In this document: one piece after another, positions 21,277-33,644 of the stretch | How positions within the stretch are numbered: the first letter of the stretch is position 1 | How the letters are laid out: every line of letters begins with the position of its first letter | Assembly (NCBI RefSeq): GCF_001655675.1 | Contig: NZ_LYRP01000012.1 | Coordinates: 124,001-188,000, forward strand | DNA length: 64,000 nt | Reading direction: 5' to 3' | DNA from: Mangrovibacter phragmitis | GTDB taxonomy: Bacteria > Pseudomonadota > Gammaproteobacteria > Enterobacterales > Enterobacteriaceae | The notes under the pieces: generated by a model | Databases searched by the model: none | What the model was told of the DNA's origin: nothing | What the model saw: the letters and a program-made list of their open reading frames with translations, nothing else | Position numbers and translations under genes: made by a program

Positions 21277-22121
21277 TCGTCATTATGGTTTGTGTTGTCG
21301 GGGGATTCCTGATGTCTGGCGGCAGGATGGCCGCGTTCTGGCAACCCGGTGAAATCATTATTATTTTAGGGGCTGGTTTTGGCGCGACAATGCTTGCCAA
21401 CCCGCGCTCAGTTCTGCAGGAAATGTACCGCCAGTTTCGTGGTGTACTGCGTAAAAATGAATACACAGATGAATACCAGCGCCAGTTACTCATGCTGCTC
21501 TTCGAGCTGCTGGAACTGGTACAGGAAGGTGGCCTGAAGACGCTGGATGAACATATTGAAGTGCCAGAAAATAGCGCGTTATTTCAGAAATACCCACGCA
21601 TTATGCGTGACAAAGCGCTGGTCACATTTATTTCCGACAACTTTCGCCTGATGGCAATGGGAAAAATCAACGAACATGAACTGGAGGGCCTGCTCGAACA
21701 GGAGCTGGGCGCAATGGAAGAAAACCTGCTGTTGCCATCACGGTCGTTGCACCGCACTGCTGAAGCTATGCCGGGTTTTGGTATTTGTGCCGCTGTTCTG
21801 GGGATTATTATCACCATGCAGTCCATTGACGGTTCCATTGCGATAATTGGCGTGAAAGTGGCCGCCGCTCTGGTGGGGACTTTTCTTGGCGTGTTCTTCT
21901 GTTACTGCCTGATGGATCCACTGGCGAATGCGATGGAGCAACGCACGAAAAAACAGCTGTCTATTTTAGAGTGCGTCCGTACCGTGCTGGTCAACCATGT
22001 GGCCGGGAAACCCACCTTACTGGCGGTGGATGCCGGGCGAAAAATGTTGCCCATGGACGCCAAACCCACCTTCGCAACGCTGGATGGCTGGGTTAATGCA
22101 ATGCAGGATGACGCCGGATGA
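21255..22121 (+). CDS. lafT: Lateral stator protein LafT (MotA)
   Basis: A 288-aa MotA-family stator subunit, inner membrane, four spans. The family landmarks are present: the N-terminal GGFLMSGGRMAAFWQPGEII, the cytoplasmic torque-generating loop (IMRDKALVTFISDNFRLMAM), then TM3 with AEAMPGFGICAAVLGIIITM and TM4 with VAAALVGTFLGVFFCYCLMD, including the conserved prolines. It works with LafU, encoded 4 bp into its stop codon. Confidence 0.95.
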   Translation: MQKFIGLIVIMVCVVGGFLMSGGRMAAFWQPGEIIIILGAGFGATMLANPRSVLQEMYRQFRGVLRKNEYTDEYQRQLLMLLFELLELVQEGGLKTLDEHIEVPENSALFQKYPRIMRDKALVTFISDNFRLMAMGKINEHELEGLLEQELGAMEENLLLPSRSLHRTAEAMPGFGICAAVLGIIITMQSIDGSIAIIGVKVAAALVGTFLGVFFCYCLMDPLANAMEQRTKKQLSILECVRTVLVNHVAGKPTLLAVDAGRKMLPMDAKPTFATLDGWVNAMQDDAG

Positions 22122-23017
22122 AAAAGCACAATGGCCACAGTACCACAATCATAAAGCGTAGCGCCCGACGCAGCCATGCGAGTCACCATGGTGGTGCGTG
22201 GAAAGTTGCCTTTGCCGATTTTACCCTGGCCATGATGGCACTTTTTATGGTGTTGTGGATTATGGGGGCATCTACCGAAGAAGAGCGTCATGAGATAGTT
22301 GCTATGTTTTATACCGATACGCTGTTCGATATTTTTTCTTCCCGTGAAACACCGGCAGGCAGCGATACACTGCCGCTGTTCGACCCTGGCGGAAACCCGT
22401 TGCCAGTGGCGCAGGCTACTACAGCACCTGCTCTGGAGCCAGAAACGCCTCAGGCGCGGGAAGCACGTTCACAGCGGGAAATTGAGGAGCTGGCGCGTTT
22501 AATTGCGCAAATCACCTCGGCGTATAATGCCCAGTCTAACCTGCATATTGAAATCGTACCCCAGGGGTTACGTATTCTGATAACCGATGACCAGCAGCGG
22601 GAAATGTTCCAGCGCAGCAGCGCAATTCTGGCACCCTTCTTCCAGCGGTTGTTAAGCGAATTTGCCCCTGCACTGAACACCATTGAGCACAAAATCATGA
22701 TAACCGGCCATACCGATGCCACCCGGTATCGTGACCAGCAGCGCTATAACAACTGGAACCTCTCTGGTGACCGGGCGTTACAGGCGCGACGGGTACTGAC
22801 CGATGCCGGGCTGGACGAACAGCGCATTGTGCAGGTCAGTGGCATGGCCGACCAAATGTTGTTTCACCCCGAAGACCCGCACCATGCCGCGAACCGGCGC
22901 ATTGAAATTATGGTACTGACACATTCAGCGAGCGAAGCGCTGTACCAGTTTTTCGGCCACCACGGGAAAAACGTTGTGCGCCCCATTATTGATAAAATCA
23001 GCCAGGTCTCTGAATAA
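22118..23017 (+). CDS. lafU: Lateral stator protein LafU (MotB)
   Basis: A 299-aa MotB-type stator subunit. It has a basic N-terminus, one membrane helix with the ion-binding Asp at residue 34 (FADFTLAMMALFMVLWIMG) and an OmpA-like peptidoglycan-binding domain (MITGHTDATRYRD, NWNLSGDRALQARRVL, ANRRIEIMVL). The gene appears intact, unlike the truncated lafU remnant known in E. coli K-12. Whether H+ or Na+ drives it is not decidable by eye. Confidence 0.95.
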   Translation: MKKHNGHSTTIIKRSARRSHASHHGGAWKVAFADFTLAMMALFMVLWIMGASTEEERHEIVAMFYTDTLFDIFSSRETPAGSDTLPLFDPGGNPLPVAQATTAPALEPETPQAREARSQREIEELARLIAQITSAYNAQSNLHIEIVPQGLRILITDDQQREMFQRSSAILAPFFQRLLSEFAPALNTIEHKIMITGHTDATRYRDQQRYNNWNLSGDRALQARRVLTDAGLDEQRIVQVSGMADQMLFHPEDPHHAANRRIEIMVLTHSASEALYQFFGHHGKNVVRPIIDKISQVSE

Positions 23018-23042
23018 CCCGGCTTTCAGTAGAAAGGAGAGA

Positions 23043-23861
23043 ATGCTGTTTATGACAAGGAGCGTCACAAAACACCTGCCCGTACCGGCATCATTATTAC
23101 TGACCTGCCTGCTGTTCCTGCCACTGGATGCAATGGCGACAGGTAATGAAGAGCGGCGTAAACTGCACAATACTCGTAGCACTGCGACGAACAGCGTGGG
23201 CCAGGCCGGTGACGCCGTGCGGGCGCGCATGCGTAACCGGGACAAATTACTGGCAAAGCGCCAGTCCCGGCCCAGTGCAGTACCACCAACACCCGGCCAG
23301 CGGCAGCAACATGCCGCGAATCAACCCGTTGAGCGGGCGAAAAACCGGGAATTACTGGCGATGTATGCCAACTGGTTGCCCGGACAACATAGTGCGGCCC
23401 AATCCCCCGAAGACTCACGCTGGTCCACCGGGGGGCAGACACACACATTGCGCGAGCAGCACACCATTCACCATGTTGTGAACCGCCTGAAAGCACAACT
23501 GGGAAAGCCTTATGTCTGGGGCGGCCACTCACCAGAAAGTGGTTTTGATTGCAGTGGCCTGGTATGGTACGCCTTTAATCCGCTCCTGAACCGTAAATTA
23601 CCCCGCACTGCAAACGCCATGTATCAGGACCGGCAGCTCAACCCGGTTCACCGCCAGCAACTGCGTAAAGGCGATTTGGTATTTTTTAGTATCAAAACGC
23701 CCAATGCGGCAGACCATGTGGGGGTTTACCTGGGGGACGGGCAGTTTATTGAAGCGCCCCGCACCGGGAAGAATATTCGTATCAGCGAATTAAATAATGA
23801 CTTCTGGAAAGCAAAATACCTGGGAGCGCGCCGGGTTATCAAAGAATCAGTCCTGTTATAA
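23043..23861 (+). CDS. Secreted NlpC/P60 peptidoglycan endopeptidase
   Basis: A 272-aa protein with an N-terminal signal peptide (hydrophobic core LLLTCLLFLPLDAMA), a basic low-complexity linker (about 30-125) and a C-terminal NlpC/P60 domain. Catalytic elements are visible: Cys in SGFDCSGLVWY, His in NAADHVGVYLGDGQFIEAPR, plus the family's G-K-P-Y-V-W-G-G entry motif. It would cut peptidoglycan peptide stems. It starts 25 bp after lafU with AAGGAG upstream, so it is probably the last gene of the laf operon. LfgJ lacks a muramidase domain, so this enzyme may open the wall for the rod (inference). Its 3' end is duplicated at 25277. Confidence 0.9.
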   Translation: MLFMTRSVTKHLPVPASLLLTCLLFLPLDAMATGNEERRKLHNTRSTATNSVGQAGDAVRARMRNRDKLLAKRQSRPSAVPPTPGQRQQHAANQPVERAKNRELLAMYANWLPGQHSAAQSPEDSRWSTGGQTHTLREQHTIHHVVNRLKAQLGKPYVWGGHSPESGFDCSGLVWYAFNPLLNRKLPRTANAMYQDRQLNPVHRQQLRKGDLVFFSIKTPNAADHVGVYLGDGQFIEAPRTGKNIRISELNNDFWKAKYLGARRVIKESVLL

Positions 23862-23872
23862 ACAGAAAAAAA

Positions 23873-23893
23873 GCGTGAGCAACCTGCTCACGC
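23873..23893 (-). terminator. Hairpin terminator, copy 1 of 3
   Basis: A 9-bp stem (GCGTGAGCA / TGCTCACGC) twelve bases after the NlpC/P60 stop. Seven A residues precede it on the plus strand, so the U-run is on the minus-strand transcript; read from the plus strand it is a hairpin without a T-run. Near-identical copies occur at 24040 and 25413. Confidence 0.7.
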
Positions 23894-23958
23894 CCGAGTC
23901 TGATGACAAACCTTATGTCCGCACAGAACGAGAGGATGTCACCCAATAAAAAAACAAG

Positions 23959-24027
23959 GAAAATCAATTTATTGATTTTCGGCTGCTAACTAAAAAGAAG
24001 GAAAAACCACGTTTTTTCCTTCTTTTT
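23959..24027. repeat. Two perfect hairpins between terminator copies
   Basis: First, a 10-bp perfect palindrome arm pair (GAAAATCAAT / ATTGATTTTC) at 23959-23980 with a 2-base loop. Second, a 15-bp perfect stem (AAAAAGAAGGAAAAA and its complement) at 23992-24027 with a 6-base loop, which ends in T-runs on both strands and could stop transcription in either direction. No gene overlaps them. Confidence 0.7.
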
Positions 24028-24039
24028 CATCAATCTGAA

Positions 24040-24060
24040 GCGTGAGCAACCCGCTCACGC
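24040..24060. repeat. Hairpin terminator, copy 2 of 3 (no U-run)
   Basis: An 8-bp stem GCGTGAGC / GCTCACGC identical in stem and loop to copy 3, followed by the same CCCA. The A-run seen before copies 1 and 3 is replaced by AATCTGAA, so this copy has lost its terminator tail. Confidence 0.7.
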
Positions 24061-24492
24061 CCATGAGTTATCCGTACTGATGGTTTCCTTTCCTGAAAGG
24101 CTAACAACCCTTAAAAACAACAATAAGGAAATATGTTAGACAAGCATTAGATTAATGATTTCAATCATCCCGTACACAGCGCCATCCTCAACAATTGATA
24201 AATAAATCACCGTGAAAAATCCTAACCTGCTAATTGCATTGATTAAGCGCACAGTTCTTAAGCTAAATTTCGCTACTAATATAGCTCTTTACTCATCAAT
24301 TTCAGGCTGCATTACGAGCAGACAGGCTGGCACGAAGGAGCTGGTTGCACCCCGGCCGAGTTTTTGAAGGGTGTATAACAATCGTTCATGAGTCTGATTT
24401 TGCCATGATACACAACGCCCTTATGAATACCCCTCTCATACAGGTGCCATGTATGCGGTTCCTAATGGCTCGCGGATGGATAGAGGTTGTTG
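24061..24492. other. Intergenic region upstream of the hcp cassette
   Basis: This 432-bp AT-rich stretch has no gene I can support. It must hold the promoter of the 24493-25295 cassette, but no strong -10/-35 pair stands out. Short open frames near 24420 lack ribosome sites. Confidence 0.5.
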
Positions 24493-24768
24493 ATGGCGGT
24501 TTTACAAACACTTGCCCGTAGAGCGGCAAAAACAGTCTTTTTCATAGCGTCATCAATCGCTGTAGGGCGAACTTTAGGCCCTCCCGAAAATTGGGTTAGC
24601 ATCAATTTTGTTCATCAGCTTGGGAGGGCCATTTATGGCCCTGGAGATATCGGAGCAGATAATTTCTGGGATCTCATGTTTTACATTGATTTTCTCACTG
24701 TCATTTCAATTACGACTGTCATCTACATCGTAACAATGAAGTTAATAACCAAAATAAGGAAAAAGTGA
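24493..24768 (+). CDS. Small two-span membrane protein next to hcp
   Basis: A 91-aa protein with two hydrophobic segments (about 13-28 and 62-82) and a basic C-terminus. The ATG at 24493 has AGAGG six bases upstream; two TTG codons precede it in frame. A central GPPENWVSINFVHQLGRAIY stretch and DNFWDLMFYIDFL precede the second span. It is distantly similar in layout to the protein at 25008 (PE-x-W motif, then D-x-x-W-E/D-L before the second span). It ends one base before hcp. Its function is unknown; an association with type VI secretion is suggested only by the neighbour. Confidence 0.7.
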   Translation: MAVLQTLARRAAKTVFFIASSIAVGRTLGPPENWVSINFVHQLGRAIYGPGDIGADNFWDLMFYIDFLTVISITTVIYIVTMKLITKIRKK

Positions 24769-24769
24769 A

Positions 24770-25006
24770 ATGCCAATCCCTCCATATATGTGGCTTAAAG
24801 ACGACGGCGGCGCAGATATTAAAGGCTCCGTGGGCGTGCAAGACCGTGAAGGCAGTATTGAGATCATCGGCCTGAGCCACGGCATAAACCTCCCGGCAGA
24901 CAATGCTAACGGCAAAATAACCGGTACCCGCCAGCACTCATCCATGCGGATTGTTGACGGCAATATCATGTACACCGATGCATGGAATGAGCGTCCGACT
25001 GCGTAA
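24770..25006 (+). pseudogene. hcp: Hcp (type VI secretion tube) with a large internal deletion
   Basis: A 78-aa open frame. Residues 1-61 match the conserved start of Hcp (MPIPPYMWLKDDGGADIKGS, GSIEIIGLSHGINLPADNAN, TGTRQHSSM), and residues 62-78 match its extreme C-terminus (VDGNIMYTDAWNERPTA). Full Hcp is about 160 aa, so some 80 residues of the middle are gone in frame. The remainder cannot form the Hcp beta-barrel ring as known, so I class it as a remnant, although the frame is still open. It lies one base from each neighbour. No other T6SS gene is in the window. Confidence 0.85.
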
Positions 25007-25007
25007 G

Positions 25008-25295
25008 ATGAATTCCACCTCGAAGTTATTGGCTGTAATCAGGTATATCTGTCGCGCCATTCTTGTGCTGATTGCTTTCTTCTTCGCCAGCTTCATTTTT
25101 TCAGGCGTAGTAGAAGCGATGATTCCAGAAACGTGGATCGATTGGGTGCAAGGCTCGCTTAATTTTAGGCAAAGCATTGAAGGTTATTACGATGCATGGG
25201 AGTTAATCGCTTTTCTTATCAGCCTGCCAACGGCCATGCTGGCATCCTGGTTAACCTTCCGTCTATCTGGATATCTGCCTTTAATCCGCTCCTGA
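25008..25295 (+). CDS. Small two-span membrane protein after hcp, 3' end fused to a duplicated sequence
   Basis: A 95-aa protein starting one base after the hcp stop. Two hydrophobic segments (about 14-33 and 65-83) flank a segment with PETWIDWVQ and YDAWELIAFLISLP, giving the same layout as the protein at 24493. The last residues (after about residue 90) are encoded by the duplicated NlpC/P60 sequence that begins at 25277, so the native C-terminus has probably been replaced. Function unknown; a T6SS immunity or accessory role is only a guess from position. Confidence 0.65.
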   Translation: MNSTSKLLAVIRYICRAILVLIAFFFASFIFSGVVEAMIPETWIDWVQGSLNFRQSIEGYYDAWELIAFLISLPTAMLASWLTFRLSGYLPLIRS

Positions 25296-25408
25296 GCCGT
25301 AAATTACCCCGCATCGCAAACGCCTTGTATCAGCGAATTAAATAATACTTCTGGAAAGTAAAATACCTGGGAGCGCGCCGGGTTATCAAAGAATCAGTCC
25401 TGTTATAA
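25277..25408 (+). pseudogene. Partial second copy of the NlpC/P60 gene 3' end
   Basis: Bases 25277-25333 repeat 23571-23627, and 25334-25408 repeat about 23788-23861, with few mismatches and a one-base deletion in AATAATACTTC. The 150-160 bases between are missing, and the join falls on the shared heptamer GTATCAG present at both ends in the intact gene, which points to a short-homology deletion. The copy has no start and cannot encode the catalytic domain. The following terminator is also copied. Confidence 0.9.
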
Positions 25409-25412
25409 ACAG

Positions 25413-25440
25413 AAAAAAAGCGTGAGCAACCCGCTCACGC
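25413..25440 (-). terminator. Rho-independent terminator of the pectin operon, copy 3 of 3
   Basis: Stem GCGTGAGC / GCTCACGC (25420-25427, 25433-25440) followed on the minus strand by seven T residues. It lies about 85 bp beyond the stop of the minus-strand PL2 lyase and so probably ends the pectin operon, although its sequence came with the NlpC/P60 duplication. Confidence 0.8.
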
Positions 25441-25525
25441 CCATCACCACATTCCGTGTGATAAAGAGTAACGCCAGGAATCACCAGCCTGACGTTACCC
25501 GGGGATATCATCACCGTTGTTACGG

Positions 25526-27229
25526 TTACTTTTTCCCGTTCGGTTGCAATTGCTCACCGACTTTCAGCCGTAACAACTCATCATCCCGGGTTGAAACACG
25601 GGCACTGCCATCAGGCATCCGGTAAGCACCTTCAGTAAACCCGGCACCGTTAATAAATGGCGCAACAGCGTCGGGTTTATTCTGCCGCGCGGCTTCCAGC
25701 GCCAGAATGGCGTAAGGGTCGATACTGTCGATGCTGGCATACTGCATATCCGGGCTATTCATAAAGAAGCCATGATGCAGGTTATGGGCAATAATGTTGT
25801 CTGCGACCTTTTCAGCCACTGCCAGGTATTGTTTATCCTGGGTGGCACGCCACAAATCAATCAGAGCAAAAATTGCGTATGGTTCACGATTACGGGTATT
25901 CAGGTCTAATTTCGCTTTCCCCGACACCACGCCAATATCGCCCAGGCCTCTTGCCAGGGCAATGCCCCGTGCGACAGCCCACAATTCCGGGTCTGGCGCA
26001 ATGGCATAAGCGCGTGCGTAAGAAAGGAGAAACTCACTGCCTGCCGGGTAGGGCGTCAGTACTGTGCCTTTTTTGCCATAATAGCCATCCCGCGGGAGTG
26101 TATAACCCGACAAATCTGTGCCATTAGCCAGCATCGGCCGGAATGTATTGTCGCGGGCGTCATACGCGTATTTGGCAAAGGCTTTCAGCCCGTCCACTGT
26201 CCATGTTTTTAGTGTATCGCCTTCCGCCCCCAGGTCCGCTGCCAGTTGCAGTTGCATCAGGGCATTTTCAGAATAAAGGGTACTGGTTCGCCCTTTAAGC
26301 AGCATATTGCCTTCCAGGGCATCCGGCCCAAACTCCGGGCCAAACTGGCGCTGAGCGCGGTCGCCATATTTGGAATGAGTGTCACTGTCATCGGTGGTTT
26401 CCGCCCGCTTTAACGCCTGGGTAAACTGGTAAACCCCAAGGCCGGTTTGCTTATCGCGCGGTAGTACATATTGCTGTGCCAGGCGCAGCGCCCAGGTCAG
26501 CGCTTCGGGCTCGTGGTTATATTTGGCAAGCAATGAAGCAGAATAGATAAGGTCATTGCCCGCATTTAAAAAACTGAGCCCTTTAGTGGCGAAAAATGGC
26601 GGTTGCTGGGTGAAATCATTGCGCCATAATTTTCCCATTGGTTTACCGTATTCACCGTGACGGCTGGTCTCCAGGGCTTTCCAGTCGTATACATGGGCAT
26701 TCCAGAAAGCATGAATAAACCGAACTGTTGCGGGTTTATCTACCTGAAACATCAACGAATAAAAGGGATAGGCATTCTTGAGTTCATGCACCAACTCTTT
26801 CTCGCTCGGCCCTTCGGGTTGCAAGGTTTTTAAGTCTACAAAACGGTGCCCGCCCCAGAAAAGCAAACCACTTTTATCCTGGTAATGATCAAAATAGTAA
26901 CGCACCAGGGTTTGCGCCCGCTCAGCATAGCGTGGGTCGCCGGTGAGCTGCGTTAACCCCACCAGTACCCGCATAAAGTTTTGCTGGGCTGAAAAATTGG
27001 ATAGCACAGCATGGCGGCCATCAGGGAAAACCCATTCCAGCTGCTGGCCGGTTCGCGGGGCTACACCATCCGCCAGCAGAGGAGAAGGCGTATCACCATG
27101 GTAGTGATCGGCCGCTTTATCCAGCACCGTATCGGCATACTGTTTTACCACATCAATGCGCGAAGCAGCCTGTACCTGAACCGCGACCAGGCTGGCACAA
27201 CATAATGCAGCCAAAGACTGTTTTTTCAT
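25526..27229 (-). CDS. pelX: Periplasmic exo-pectate lyase, polysaccharide lyase family 2 (PelW/PelX/PL2 type)
   Basis: A 567-aa protein with a cleavable signal (MKKQSLAALCCASLVAVQVQA). It matches the PL2 exopolygalacturonate lyases of Dickeya and Yersinia in length and in blocks such as GQQLEWVFPDGRHAVLSNFS, LLFWGGHRFVDLKTLQPEGP and KYGDRAQRQFGPEFG. These enzymes release unsaturated digalacturonate from chain ends by beta-elimination. The signal suggests the PelX-like periplasmic form rather than cytoplasmic PelW. The ATG at 27229 follows AAGGA; pemA ends 10 bp upstream, so this is the last gene of the operon. Confidence 0.88.
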   Translation of the reverse strand: MKKQSLAALCCASLVAVQVQAASRIDVVKQYADTVLDKAADHYHGDTPSPLLADGVAPRTGQQLEWVFPDGRHAVLSNFSAQQNFMRVLVGLTQLTGDPRYAERAQTLVRYYFDHYQDKSGLLFWGGHRFVDLKTLQPEGPSEKELVHELKNAYPFYSLMFQVDKPATVRFIHAFWNAHVYDWKALETSRHGEYGKPMGKLWRNDFTQQPPFFATKGLSFLNAGNDLIYSASLLAKYNHEPEALTWALRLAQQYVLPRDKQTGLGVYQFTQALKRAETTDDSDTHSKYGDRAQRQFGPEFGPDALEGNMLLKGRTSTLYSENALMQLQLAADLGAEGDTLKTWTVDGLKAFAKYAYDARDNTFRPMLANGTDLSGYTLPRDGYYGKKGTVLTPYPAGSEFLLSYARAYAIAPDPELWAVARGIALARGLGDIGVVSGKAKLDLNTRNREPYAIFALIDLWRATQDKQYLAVAEKVADNIIAHNLHHGFFMNSPDMQYASIDSIDPYAILALEAARQNKPDAVAPFINGAGFTEGAYRMPDGSARVSTRDDELLRLKVGEQLQPNGKK

Positions 27230-27239
27230 TGCGATATCC

Positions 27240-28325
27240 TTAGTCAAAAAGGGCTGCATCCCAGCCAGAGAAAATAGCGTGTAGTTGATAATGTGAGGCC
27301 AGCTCCGGCGCTAATTGATAATGTTCGCCCCCACGCCCGGCTCCGGGGCCTGTATTGTTCATTTCGTAAAAACGGCTGTCCTCAGGATAAAACCAGACCT
27401 GTTCACCCTGTTTATCTTTGCCGGACATTTTGTCCCAGCCATAGATATGGTCATCTATTTGGCACTGTATAAAGACGGCTGTGCCAATGGCATGGGGATC
27501 TGCGTAGCGGCCATCTGCAAAAGTCGTTGTGGGGTGCCACGGGCGACCAAGAGCAAAGCTTCCGGCGGGTACTCCTGGCTCTTTCGTCAGATGGCTGTGC
27601 ATGAAAATAAGCCCGTAAGGTTTGTCATCCGGGGTGCTGGGTGCCGTGATATACCCCAGCGGCGGGGCGATATCACTACGATTGCGGGCAATAATGGTAC
27701 AGCGGTCAAACACCGCAATACCGCCGCCAAAAATAAAGTCCACATGGCCGCTAATTTCGCAGTCAGTAAAATAGCTGCGGCTGCCATTCTTGCTGTAGAA
27801 CGTGTCCTGGTAACCTTCCAGGCGCACTTTGCGAAACCGCGCCTTGTCAATATTCTTGCCAACCATTAATGCTACAGCCTGGGTGTCTTTCAGCTTGTTG
27901 GGATCGTCTGCCGGTAACGCACTGTTTGCCGGGAAATCAAAGCTGTTGCGCACTGTCAGGTTTTCCAGTGTTACACCCGAAGCCGCCACCTCAACAGTAC
28001 TGGTGCGGAACGTTCCCAGTTTTTTACCCGCGGCATCCAGAGCACCTGCTGGCGTGTTGGCTTCAATAATCGTGTTCTCCCGGGATTCGCCCACTAACGT
28101 GACGGGTTTAGTGATCACCAGACGCTCATGCCAGACACCATTCTGAATTAAAATACGCCAGGGTTTACCCTGCTCTGGCGCAGCCTGAAGCGCCGCCTGG
28201 AGAGAATGGTAATGGTTGCTACCTGGTGTGGAAGACACAATGGCGTCCCAGGGGCTGGCATGAACCATCCCACTCGCCATCATTGCCATCGCGAAGCAGG
28301 TGGCAGGCAAAAATGAACGTGTCAT
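27240..28325 (-). CDS. pemA: Pectin methylesterase, CE8 family
   Basis: A 361-aa secreted pectinesterase that removes methyl groups from pectin so that lyases can act. After a signal peptide (to about residue 23, MVHA) the CE8 parallel beta-helix follows. Active-site blocks are QAVALMVGKNIDKARFRKVR then EGYQDTFYSKNGSRSYF, HVDFIFGGGIAVFDRC (catalytic Asp) and ALGRPWHPTTTF (Arg and Trp of the family). It lies between paeY and the PL2 lyase with 10-20 bp gaps. Confidence 0.93.
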   Translation of the reverse strand: MTRSFLPATCFAMAMMASGMVHASPWDAIVSSTPGSNHYHSLQAALQAAPEQGKPWRILIQNGVWHERLVITKPVTLVGESRENTIIEANTPAGALDAAGKKLGTFRTSTVEVAASGVTLENLTVRNSFDFPANSALPADDPNKLKDTQAVALMVGKNIDKARFRKVRLEGYQDTFYSKNGSRSYFTDCEISGHVDFIFGGGIAVFDRCTIIARNRSDIAPPLGYITAPSTPDDKPYGLIFMHSHLTKEPGVPAGSFALGRPWHPTTTFADGRYADPHAIGTAVFIQCQIDDHIYGWDKMSGKDKQGEQVWFYPEDSRFYEMNNTGPGAGRGGEHYQLAPELASHYQLHAIFSGWDAALFD

Positions 28326-32057: not shown

Positions 32058-33644
32058 ATGCGTACCTGGTTCGATAAACTGACAGGCAAGAACAAACCGC
32101 CCCGGTTTATGAAGAGCTGGGCCCCGGAGCGGGAAGCGATTTACCACTGGATGGCGACCTGGCAATGTAGCCAGCACCACGAAGAGATGGCCTTGCCCGA
32201 TGAGCCGCCTGCTGAAGATGAGAGCTTGCGCTGGGCACCCGGGGCGCTGGATGGCACCCTGGCGTGGCATACCGGGCAACCCGACGATGTACGCCAGAAA
32301 GTCGCCCAGAGTATTCATGCACTCCAGGCCGTACTGGCTGTGCCATCCGACGAAACGGCAATGCAGGGACTGTATCGTTTGCTGAACGAAGGTTATCCAC
32401 TGAGCTATATCGATGCCCTGTTGCAAGAAATCGCTAACACGCGAACCATTGCCGCTGAACGCCTGCGCTGGCTTGCTGAGTGGCTGGCAACAGAAGCACC
32501 AGACCGCAATGTGGTGAAAGTCGCCATGGCTTTGTTGATGTTTTTCCCCGGCGAGCGGAGTGTATCAATCCTGACCACGCTGGGCGCGCATGATGAGTTT
32601 ACGCTCTATGCTGTCGTCGCATTACGCGCCATGTTAAGCCAGGAAGAATACGCACAGGTCTGGTTTACACTGGCGCAACAGGCTGAAGGATGGGGGCGCA
32701 TTCATCTGATTGAGCGCTTACCCACTCCACTTCCCGATGAGATTCGCCACTGGCTGCTGCGCGAAGGTTATAGCAATACCGTCATGAATGAATACACCGC
32801 CTGGCATTGTGCCAGTGGTGGAGATTTACCCCGGGCATTGCAGGAAGAACAGGACGAAGCACTGCTATTGGGTGCGGCGGGCATTATTCAGGCTCTGATT
32901 GCTGGCGGCCCCGCCCGTGATATGCGTAATTATGACGACAACGACCTGCTGTGTACCCGCTGGTTACAGCGAATACACACTCTGCCGCCTGCCGATTTAC
33001 ACTATTATCTGTGTGCCAGTGCTATTGCCAACTGGGCCGCACGCCAGGCAGAAGAAGATACCGACAACGCGCCACGCTGGCTGGATTTACGCCATCTGGC
33101 CGTAGATGTACTGGCTAACCCCGGCTGGGCAGAGTGCATTAGCGAAGAATTTGACCAGCCGGACTGGTCACGCTTTTATCTGGCAGTACAGGCAAGCCAG
33201 TGCCGGGGAGAAGACCCCTGGCCCAAAGTTTATGAACGCCAGAGCCGTTTTCCGAATGAAAGCCACTGGTATACGCTGCTGCAAACTCACGCCAGAGAGC
33301 GGGCCAGCATGGTTCAGGCGCTGGCAGAACAGCAATTGAACCTGGCGCAGATAGCCAGCGGCCCTTCTCTTGAGGTGGGGATTGGCACGGGCTGGCATGA
33401 TCACCATGTACTGGATGGCATCTTATATGGGTTGCAACGTTTCCCGGGGGTGGGCTGGTCACTGGTGGATGCAGGGCTATACAGCCCATTGATTCATAAC
33501 CGCAGTGTCGCTCTGCAAGTGCTTGAAGCCTGGTCATTACCCGACGATACGCGCTGGCGGCTGGAGCATTTATTACGTGTTGAGCCAGACGATGAACTGC
33601 GTCTGCGTATTAGTGAGCAACTGGCCACATTATCCACCGCATAA
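32058..33644 (+). CDS. Large soluble protein of unknown function, helical-repeat-like
   Basis: A 528-aa protein with an excellent ribosome site (AAGGAGG, six bases before ATG). It has no signal peptide or membrane span and is rich in Trp, Leu and Glu. Repeated helical pairs with the feel of HEAT/armadillo units run through it (for example TIAAERLRWLAEWLATEAPD, HNRSVALQVLEAWSLPDDTR and WRLEHLLRVEPDDELRLRIS). I do not recognise a named family or catalytic motif. It stands alone between the pectin operon (opposite strand) and a flavodoxin-like gene. Confidence 0.75.
   Translation: MRTWFDKLTGKNKPPRFMKSWAPEREAIYHWMATWQCSQHHEEMALPDEPPAEDESLRWAPGALDGTLAWHTGQPDDVRQKVAQSIHALQAVLAVPSDETAMQGLYRLLNEGYPLSYIDALLQEIANTRTIAAERLRWLAEWLATEAPDRNVVKVAMALLMFFPGERSVSILTTLGAHDEFTLYAVVALRAMLSQEEYAQVWFTLAQQAEGWGRIHLIERLPTPLPDEIRHWLLREGYSNTVMNEYTAWHCASGGDLPRALQEEQDEALLLGAAGIIQALIAGGPARDMRNYDDNDLLCTRWLQRIHTLPPADLHYYLCASAIANWAARQAEEDTDNAPRWLDLRHLAVDVLANPGWAECISEEFDQPDWSRFYLAVQASQCRGEDPWPKVYERQSRFPNESHWYTLLQTHARERASMVQALAEQQLNLAQIASGPSLEVGIGTGWHDHHVLDGILYGLQRFPGVGWSLVDAGLYSPLIHNRSVALQVLEAWSLPDDTRWRLEHLLRVEPDDELRLRISEQLATLSTA

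Follow-up and report, generated by a model that had tools for sequence, protein, structure and literature searches.

Locus organization

The 64,000-nucleotide stretch of Mangrovibacter phragmitis DNA analyzed here (contig NZ_LYRP01000012.1, positions 124,001 to 188,000; hereafter the window) contains an NlpC/P60 gene, preceded by a MotB/OmpA-type gene and facing a PL2 pectate lyase gene of a pectin operon (Table 1). Between these two genes lie a ~143-bp non-coding element, a partial second copy of the NlpC/P60 3′ end, an hcp pseudogene, and a 27-nt hairpin that occurs three times (from positions 23871, 24038, and 25418, matching the reference hairpin at 89, 100, and 100%). The own genome (G000) was compared with those of two congeners, G001, which we take to be M. 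plantisponsor, and G002, whose NlpC/P60 orthologs are 87% and 83% alike, respectively. The duplicated NlpC end and the hairpins stem from two separate events: insertion of the ~143-bp mobile element, and an NlpC repeat that brackets a decayed block with an hcp pseudogene.

An initial annotation of this DNA had proposed that the NlpC/P60 end is duplicated, with an internal deletion in the second copy, and repeat searches recovered exactly this arrangement. Three repeat pairs, 23571-23627 with 25277-25333 (57 nt, 93%), 23779-23798 with 25327-25346 (20 nt, 100%), and 23800-23895 with 25347-25442 (96 nt, 98%), are too long to be due to chance. Since the heptamer GTATCAG sits at 23621, 23779, and 25327, the second copy is missing 158 bp, joined at this heptamer. 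All three hairpins that had been read as terminator copies are real, but terminator prediction did not call the middle one (24038-24062), which is instead the right target-site duplication of the ~143-bp element. The terminator had also been assigned to NlpC/P60 itself; however, the T-tract of each outer hairpin (23871-23895 and 25418-25442) is on the minus strand, and these hairpins therefore suit leftward transcripts of the pectin operon.

A multi-copy element flanked by duplicated hairpins

The ~143-bp element is present in 50 copies in the M. phragmitis genome (22 forward, 28 reverse), counted as matches with at most 3 mismatches from a 37-base core pattern, a count that omits truncated copies (L210 and L211 contain examples); the reversed control pattern gave none. 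DNA searches of the own genome with the window stretch also returned dozens of ~145-bp matches inside 23890-24045. Copies are 141-144 bp in length, and a consensus was built from 47 of the 50, excluding L065, L094, and L098, in which the left end was not recognized. The element is short, non-coding, and multi-copy, as expected of a bacterial miniature inverted-repeat transposable element (MITE). It has imperfect terminal inverted repeats (GAGTCTGATGA / TTCAGATTGATGA), which are clearer in another genus (TCAGACTGATGACAAA / TTAGATTGCTGACAAA), and shows the target duplications and empty sites described below. Other genera also conserve its right part (~90 bp), which includes a perfect stem of 15 bp.

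Many further copies were found in both congeners among the matches listed, and more distant ones in other genera: 19 of 149 family genomes gave matches at E ≤ 0.001, of which the three or four poorest are short and near chance level. Plasmid records contributed 10 matches (nine in Klebsiella and one in Providencia), and two stretches of viral contigs contain the core pattern, while no match was found at blastn sensitivity in an E. coli collection or a phage collection. Rfam returned only sub-threshold matches, to an AT-rich stem, in window positions 22000-27000, and no autonomous relative was recognized among stray left ends in the own genome.

The element usually lies between two copies of a terminator-like hairpin, the sequence of which varies from site to site. 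With anchored edges (score ≥10), a repeat flanks both sides in 34 of the 50 own copies, compared with 2 of 2,450 control pairs in which the two flanks were taken from different sites. When a wider gap was allowed, flanking repeats were detected in 35/50 own copies (control 4/2,450) and in 18/20 copies from other genera (control 3/380), the latter picked from the list of family-genome matches. The same procedure, applied to two families with similar ends that are introduced below, detected them in 9/13 YPAL copies (control 1/156; the 13 of 30 retrieved loci with both ends recognized), nearly all of them hairpins, and in 2/4 copies of a third family (control 0/12; the four exact-end matches). 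Across these four element groups, duplications are 14-26 nt long and a stem of at least 5 pairs is present in 62 of 64. For 34 of the 35 own duplications, both edges lie no more than 3 nt from those of a hairpin scoring above a set value, compared with 804 of 20,000 random window stretches. At 21 of the 35, there is a left-hand A-rich tract or a right-hand T-rich tract (five or more of 8 bases), in line with intrinsic terminators; 14 have neither.

Empty sites in congeners

Seven loci with good duplications, out of ten displayed, were compared with the congeners. L090 and L086 correspond to single-hairpin empty sites in both G001 and G002, with flanks aligned on both sides, and L107 to a single-hairpin empty site in G001 with both flanks aligned, and in G002 with a less clean left flank. 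At L101, a single hairpin is found in both congeners, but just one flank aligns. L092 is filled in G001, and G002 is without the element there but has rearranged flanks; L100 is filled in G001 and holds a truncated copy in G002; L088 is filled in both congeners, and hence in all three species. Because some sites are filled in all three species and others are empty, these comparisons suggest that the element moved both before and after the species split. The copy in the window is itself common to G001, including a one-base loop difference between its two hairpins.

Related elements with similar ends

The Y. pestis RU-2 repeat, described as related to YPAL in the part of PMC2759123 where it is printed, starts and finishes much like the Mangrovibacter element. 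The left ends are nearly identical (AGxCTGxTGACAAACC), the right ends are similar, and both elements are non-coding, but RU-2/YPAL copies are 167-168 bp rather than ~143 bp in length and their inner sequence is unrelated. RU-2/YPAL searches of the 149 family genomes gave matches in nine, with none in G000, and the 168-bp YPAL body has no match in G000 or G002; the Mangrovibacter element is therefore YPAL-like rather than YPAL. De Gregorio is said to have reported in 2006 that many YPAL targets overlap terminator-like sequences.

Two side observations concern YPAL. The Rfam model RF02770 (Ysr224, Yersinia small RNA 224) matches a YPAL copy (L184 1560-1666, minus strand), so that this small RNA family is, at least partly, the YPAL repeat. 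One YPAL-like copy in a viral contig (L264, from 368) is, by eye, apparently interrupted by an insertion that we presume begins like an IS110-type gene.

An exact search for the shared left end gave matches in six of 149 genomes, with none in G000, where the ends differ by at least one base. The third family consists of four matches (L219, L224, L218, and L225) in G005 and G144, with like ends, a body of 243-305 bp, and another inner sequence; no Rfam match over the element reached the gathering threshold. ERIC (RU-1) is likewise an enterobacterial non-coding MITE, but it is described as having TA termini and TA duplications, neither of which the Mangrovibacter element shows.

IS1182-family insertion sequences as candidate mobilizers

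Searching viral contigs for the shared left end gave nine stretches and led to L262, an insertion sequence (IS) ~1.58 kb long, ends included, that is flanked by a duplicated hairpin. Its two open reading frames (ORFs) match NF033551 (IS1182 transposase) in parts (E 1.8e-59 and 9.7e-64), and the transposase gene looks broken. Relatives of the first ORF at E ≤ 1e-30 were recovered from 7 of 198 family genomes. The L269 element has an open 475-aa transposase frame, ends of the TCAGA(C/T)TGxTGACAAA type, and the 22-nt hairpin AACCTGCTTTTTCAAGCAGGTT on both sides. Among the 11 IS1182 loci inspected, both ends are present in four, one end in six, and none in one. Unlike L262 and L269, the ~143-bp window element carries no transposase gene.

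Ends of RU-2/YPAL aligned to two different ends of L262 with scores of 21 and 16, where shuffles reached at most 11 and 13, and the Mangrovibacter ends gave best scores of 15 and 13 against IS1182 ends, where shuffles reached at most 11 and 10. By eye, the terminal repeat runs straight into a hairpin directly inside at least one end, both in the printed IS ends and at the right end of the element; the G067 copy and several IS ends begin this hairpin with CAAAG, the Mangrovibacter consensus with AAAAAG. From these similarities in sequence, the element ends may be recognized by an IS1182 transposase. An IS1202-type origin had been considered, on account of the long duplications of that type, and was dropped once IS1182 copies with fitting ends appeared.

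Structure-dependent transposition has been proposed for IS1272 of S. aureus, a member of the IS1182 family, whose transposase recognizes stem-loops and whose target is chosen via structure rather than sequence, according to PMC5678879, which also cites a review for IS1182 members that target palindromes. The legend of Fig. 13 in that paper draws stem-loop duplication as an alternative outcome (6b), which the element copies look like. IS1182 is also named in PMC9208149 among ten IS families over-represented between converging genes, which lends weak support to an IS1182 origin. According to PMC2229807 (2007), a connection of such bacterial repeats with IS ends had in most cases been neither sought nor found. 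None of 17 papers mentioning YPAL, most of them unrelated, has IS1182 in its title or abstract opening, most having been covered to that extent only, and we do not claim that the YPAL-IS1182 link is unpublished.

A decayed block between two NlpC ends

The initial annotation placed an hcp cassette within the bracketed DNA. The hcp gene is present, but as a pseudogene with an in-frame internal deletion, its product having 78 residues compared with 163 in another Hcp of the own genome, a call that rests on protein strings, as aligning the two hcp genes did not locate the gap. Pfam T6SS_HCP covers only residues 6-62 of this product and TIGR03344 scores 38.8 bits against a cut-off of 58.9; the full-length domain of a functional type VI secretion system (T6SS) Hcp is lacking. 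Directly before the second NlpC copy lies a ~69-bp piece that also occurs inside an IS of G001, where it is directly followed by an rve-domain ORF (L038:404-697); Pfam gave no match to the piece itself. Inspection by eye of the ORFs of the window block and its G001 part revealed neither a tyrosine nor a serine integrase, not every ORF having been scanned and the G001 block lying on two contigs.

In G001, the NlpC end is likewise present twice and the left part of the block matches that of the window. The first copy, the element, and the hairpins lie on one contig and the second copy beside the pectin operon on another, where the pectate lyase is 94% alike to that of the window. An intact second NlpC copy, which the initial annotation had suggested seeking in relatives, was not found in G001: its second copy is also deleted, with the joint at CCTGGG rather than GTATCAG. 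The rve-type IS piece precedes the second copy in both species, and its remnant is longer in G001. From the differing deletion joints and IS remnant lengths, decay of the second copy was independent in the two species. In addition to IS elements, the retrieved G001 parts hold genes for a DarT-like protein, an ADP-ribosylglycohydrolase, and a UvrD-like protein. These lie at the same site (L038 3699-7405, G001:C10), the DarT-like ADP-ribosyltransferase beside the other two and IS elements on both sides, and may be described as defence-like cargo.

G002 has a single NlpC with another hairpin, followed by the next shared gene, and neither block, hcp, nor pectin operon. Across the three species of Mangrovibacter searched, we found no strain with both NlpC and the pectin operon but without the block. 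Comparison with G001 and G002 supports insertion and subsequent decay of a block, now holding the hcp pseudogene, between NlpC/P60 and the pectin operon, as had been suggested for this 3′ end of the flagellar locus, except that the middle hairpin belongs to the separate element insertion. Insertion of the block by recombination is plausible, the likeliest route being recombination within the NlpC end, and the simplest idea is that this end was doubled through recombination with a molecule carrying it. The hairpins flanking the block probably came with the pectin operon, because their T-tracts lie on the left-going strand, and the operon would have arrived first and the block second.

Proposed mechanism and alternatives

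The copies, their repeated flanks, the empty sites, the similar ends, and an IS1182 element that combines ends of this type with a doubled hairpin are observed; from these, we consider it probable that the element duplicates terminator hairpins by means of an IS1182-type transposase and that, separately, a block came to be bracketed by NlpC ends. An IS1182-family transposase would most likely act in trans on ends of the TCAGA(C/T)TGxTGACAAA type, joining the element to the feet of a hairpin extruded from the target as a cruciform. Repair would then copy the single-stranded hairpin at both joints, so that hairpin and duplication would be equal in length. With the A-tract and T-tract left on the outside, a stop signal could persist in each direction and the host would be spared. 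At the block, DNA that now holds the hcp pseudogene came between NlpC/P60 and the pectin operon, flanked by NlpC 3′ ends with their terminator, and the second copy has decayed differently in the two species via deletions between short repeats. More broadly, and with less assurance, we lean towards a superfamily comprising YPAL, the 143-bp family of Mangrovibacter and Klebsiella, the 243-305-bp family, and full IS1182 insertion sequences, which would target hairpin structure, duplicate a length set by the hairpin, and rebuild a terminator on each side as a built-in safe-site strategy.

Several results weigh against this interpretation. Duplicated hairpins were found in only two of the four two-ended IS1182 loci (L262 and L269), the other two (L268 and L274) having a different hairpin on each side. 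Nor did the retrieved parts of the G001 block, which is split over two contigs, show hcp; both points lower our confidence slightly. Between 15 and 16 of the 50 own copies are without a clear duplication, and several pairs of IS end and element end score no better than shuffles. No IS1182 element with these ends turned up in any of the three Mangrovibacter genomes: part of the L262 transposase gave nothing at E ≤ 1e-30, and NF033551 finds only sub-cut-off pieces in G000 and G001 and none in G002; the G000 piece has no end-like string nearby, and the G001 piece only unpaired strings with 2-3 mismatches. IS1272 is described in PMC5678879 as replacing the target stem-loop with no duplication, whereas the stem-loop is doubled at the element. 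Table 1 of PMC2229807 gives YPAL as without terminal inverted repeats. At two sites, moreover, the alleles of the NlpC copies agree within each species, which fits gene conversion and also separate duplications.

The alternative that retains most credibility, though we regard it as unlikely, is that an ordinary DDE transposase preferring palindromes makes a fixed duplication of ~22 bp and that the match to hairpin edges is incidental. Median duplication and median hairpin are both 22 nt, and the 14-26 nt spread includes decayed cases. Exact duplications of 15 (L075), 19 (L076), 24 (L090), and 25 nt (L088), and one of 26 nt in the YPAL copy L185, nevertheless follow the hairpin, as do the coincident edges reported above. 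Duplication length tracks hairpin length (rho 0.57, n = 64 over the four groups; rho 0.46, n = 34 in the own genome), a correlation that is partly built in, the hairpin having been measured inside the duplication ±3 nt, and that limit also counts against the proposed mechanism.

For the block, separate duplications of the NlpC end in M. phragmitis and G001 are conceivable but improbable. Two of the varying sites group the copies by species, as separate origins would allow, but the two genomes have in common the left part of the block, the loop difference between the hairpins beside the element, the right boundary CCCATCACC, and the IS piece preceding the second copy. Much less likely still is that the element did not transpose but is a regulatory or terminator RNA that was duplicated and is maintained by selection beside terminators. 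Its conserved right part and perfect stem, and the terminator-like hairpins that adjoin it as a rule in the copies inspected, would agree with such an RNA, but site-specific hairpins doubled at the element edge and single-hairpin empty sites in sister species are marks of transposition, and other inner sequences carry alike ends. Finally, that the middle hairpin is a third copy left by the recombination that duplicated NlpC, with the intervening 143 bp as island DNA, draws on three hairpins 89-100% alike within 1.6 kb, but is already contradicted by the genome-wide pattern of 50 copies mostly between duplicated hairpins of other sequences, by the single hairpin at the second NlpC copy, and by single-hairpin empty sites at several other loci in congeners, and we give it almost no credence.

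Under the transposition model favored here, the similarity of the ends implicates IS1182 transposases as the machinery behind YPAL and its relatives, and the 64 natural duplications supply data on the stem-loop-duplicating branch of the model of structure-dependent transposition. If true, the model would account for the pile-up of such elements at gene ends at little cost to the host. Where 'duplicated terminators' are encountered in enterobacteria, such an element should be looked for before rearrangement is invoked.

Other features of the window

Table 1 Features at the NlpC/P60 and pectin operon junction (window coordinates)
Feature	Position	Strand	Evidence
NlpC/P60 gene, copy 1, intact	23043..23861 (start 23043 or 23052)	+	PF00877, E 5.4e-32, on longer ORF 22974-23861
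Copy 1 of duplicated stretch (NlpC 3′ part and hairpin)	23571..23895	+	Repeat search
Intrinsic-terminator-like hairpin, left copy; left target-site duplication of mobile element	23871..23895	-	Repeat and terminator search
~143-bp non-autonomous mobile element with YPAL-like ends, one of 50 copies in genome	23896..24037	+	
Hairpin, right copy; right target-site duplication, 24/25 nt identical to left copy	24038..24062		
Left part of inserted block, common to G001	24063..24347		94% over 24042-24347
Small ORF, membrane-protein-like by eye	24487..24768	+	No family match
hcp/tssD pseudogene, in-frame internal deletion	24770..25006	+	PF05638 (T6SS_HCP)
ORF extending into copy 2	25008..25295	+	No supported family match (scanned as 24951-25295)
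Remnant of IS with rve-type (IS3-like) transposase	25214..25282	-	96% to G001:C10:226317-226386
Copy 2 of NlpC 3′ end, 158 bp deleted between GTATCAG heptamers	25277..25417	+	Repeat search
Terminator-like hairpin adjoining pectin operon, T-tract on minus strand	25418..25442	-	
Periplasmic pectate lyase (PL2), nearest pectin-operon gene	25526..27259	-	PF06917, E 2e-206

Elsewhere in the window, positions 32058-33644 encode a 528-aa protein that has no Pfam match and is common to G002.

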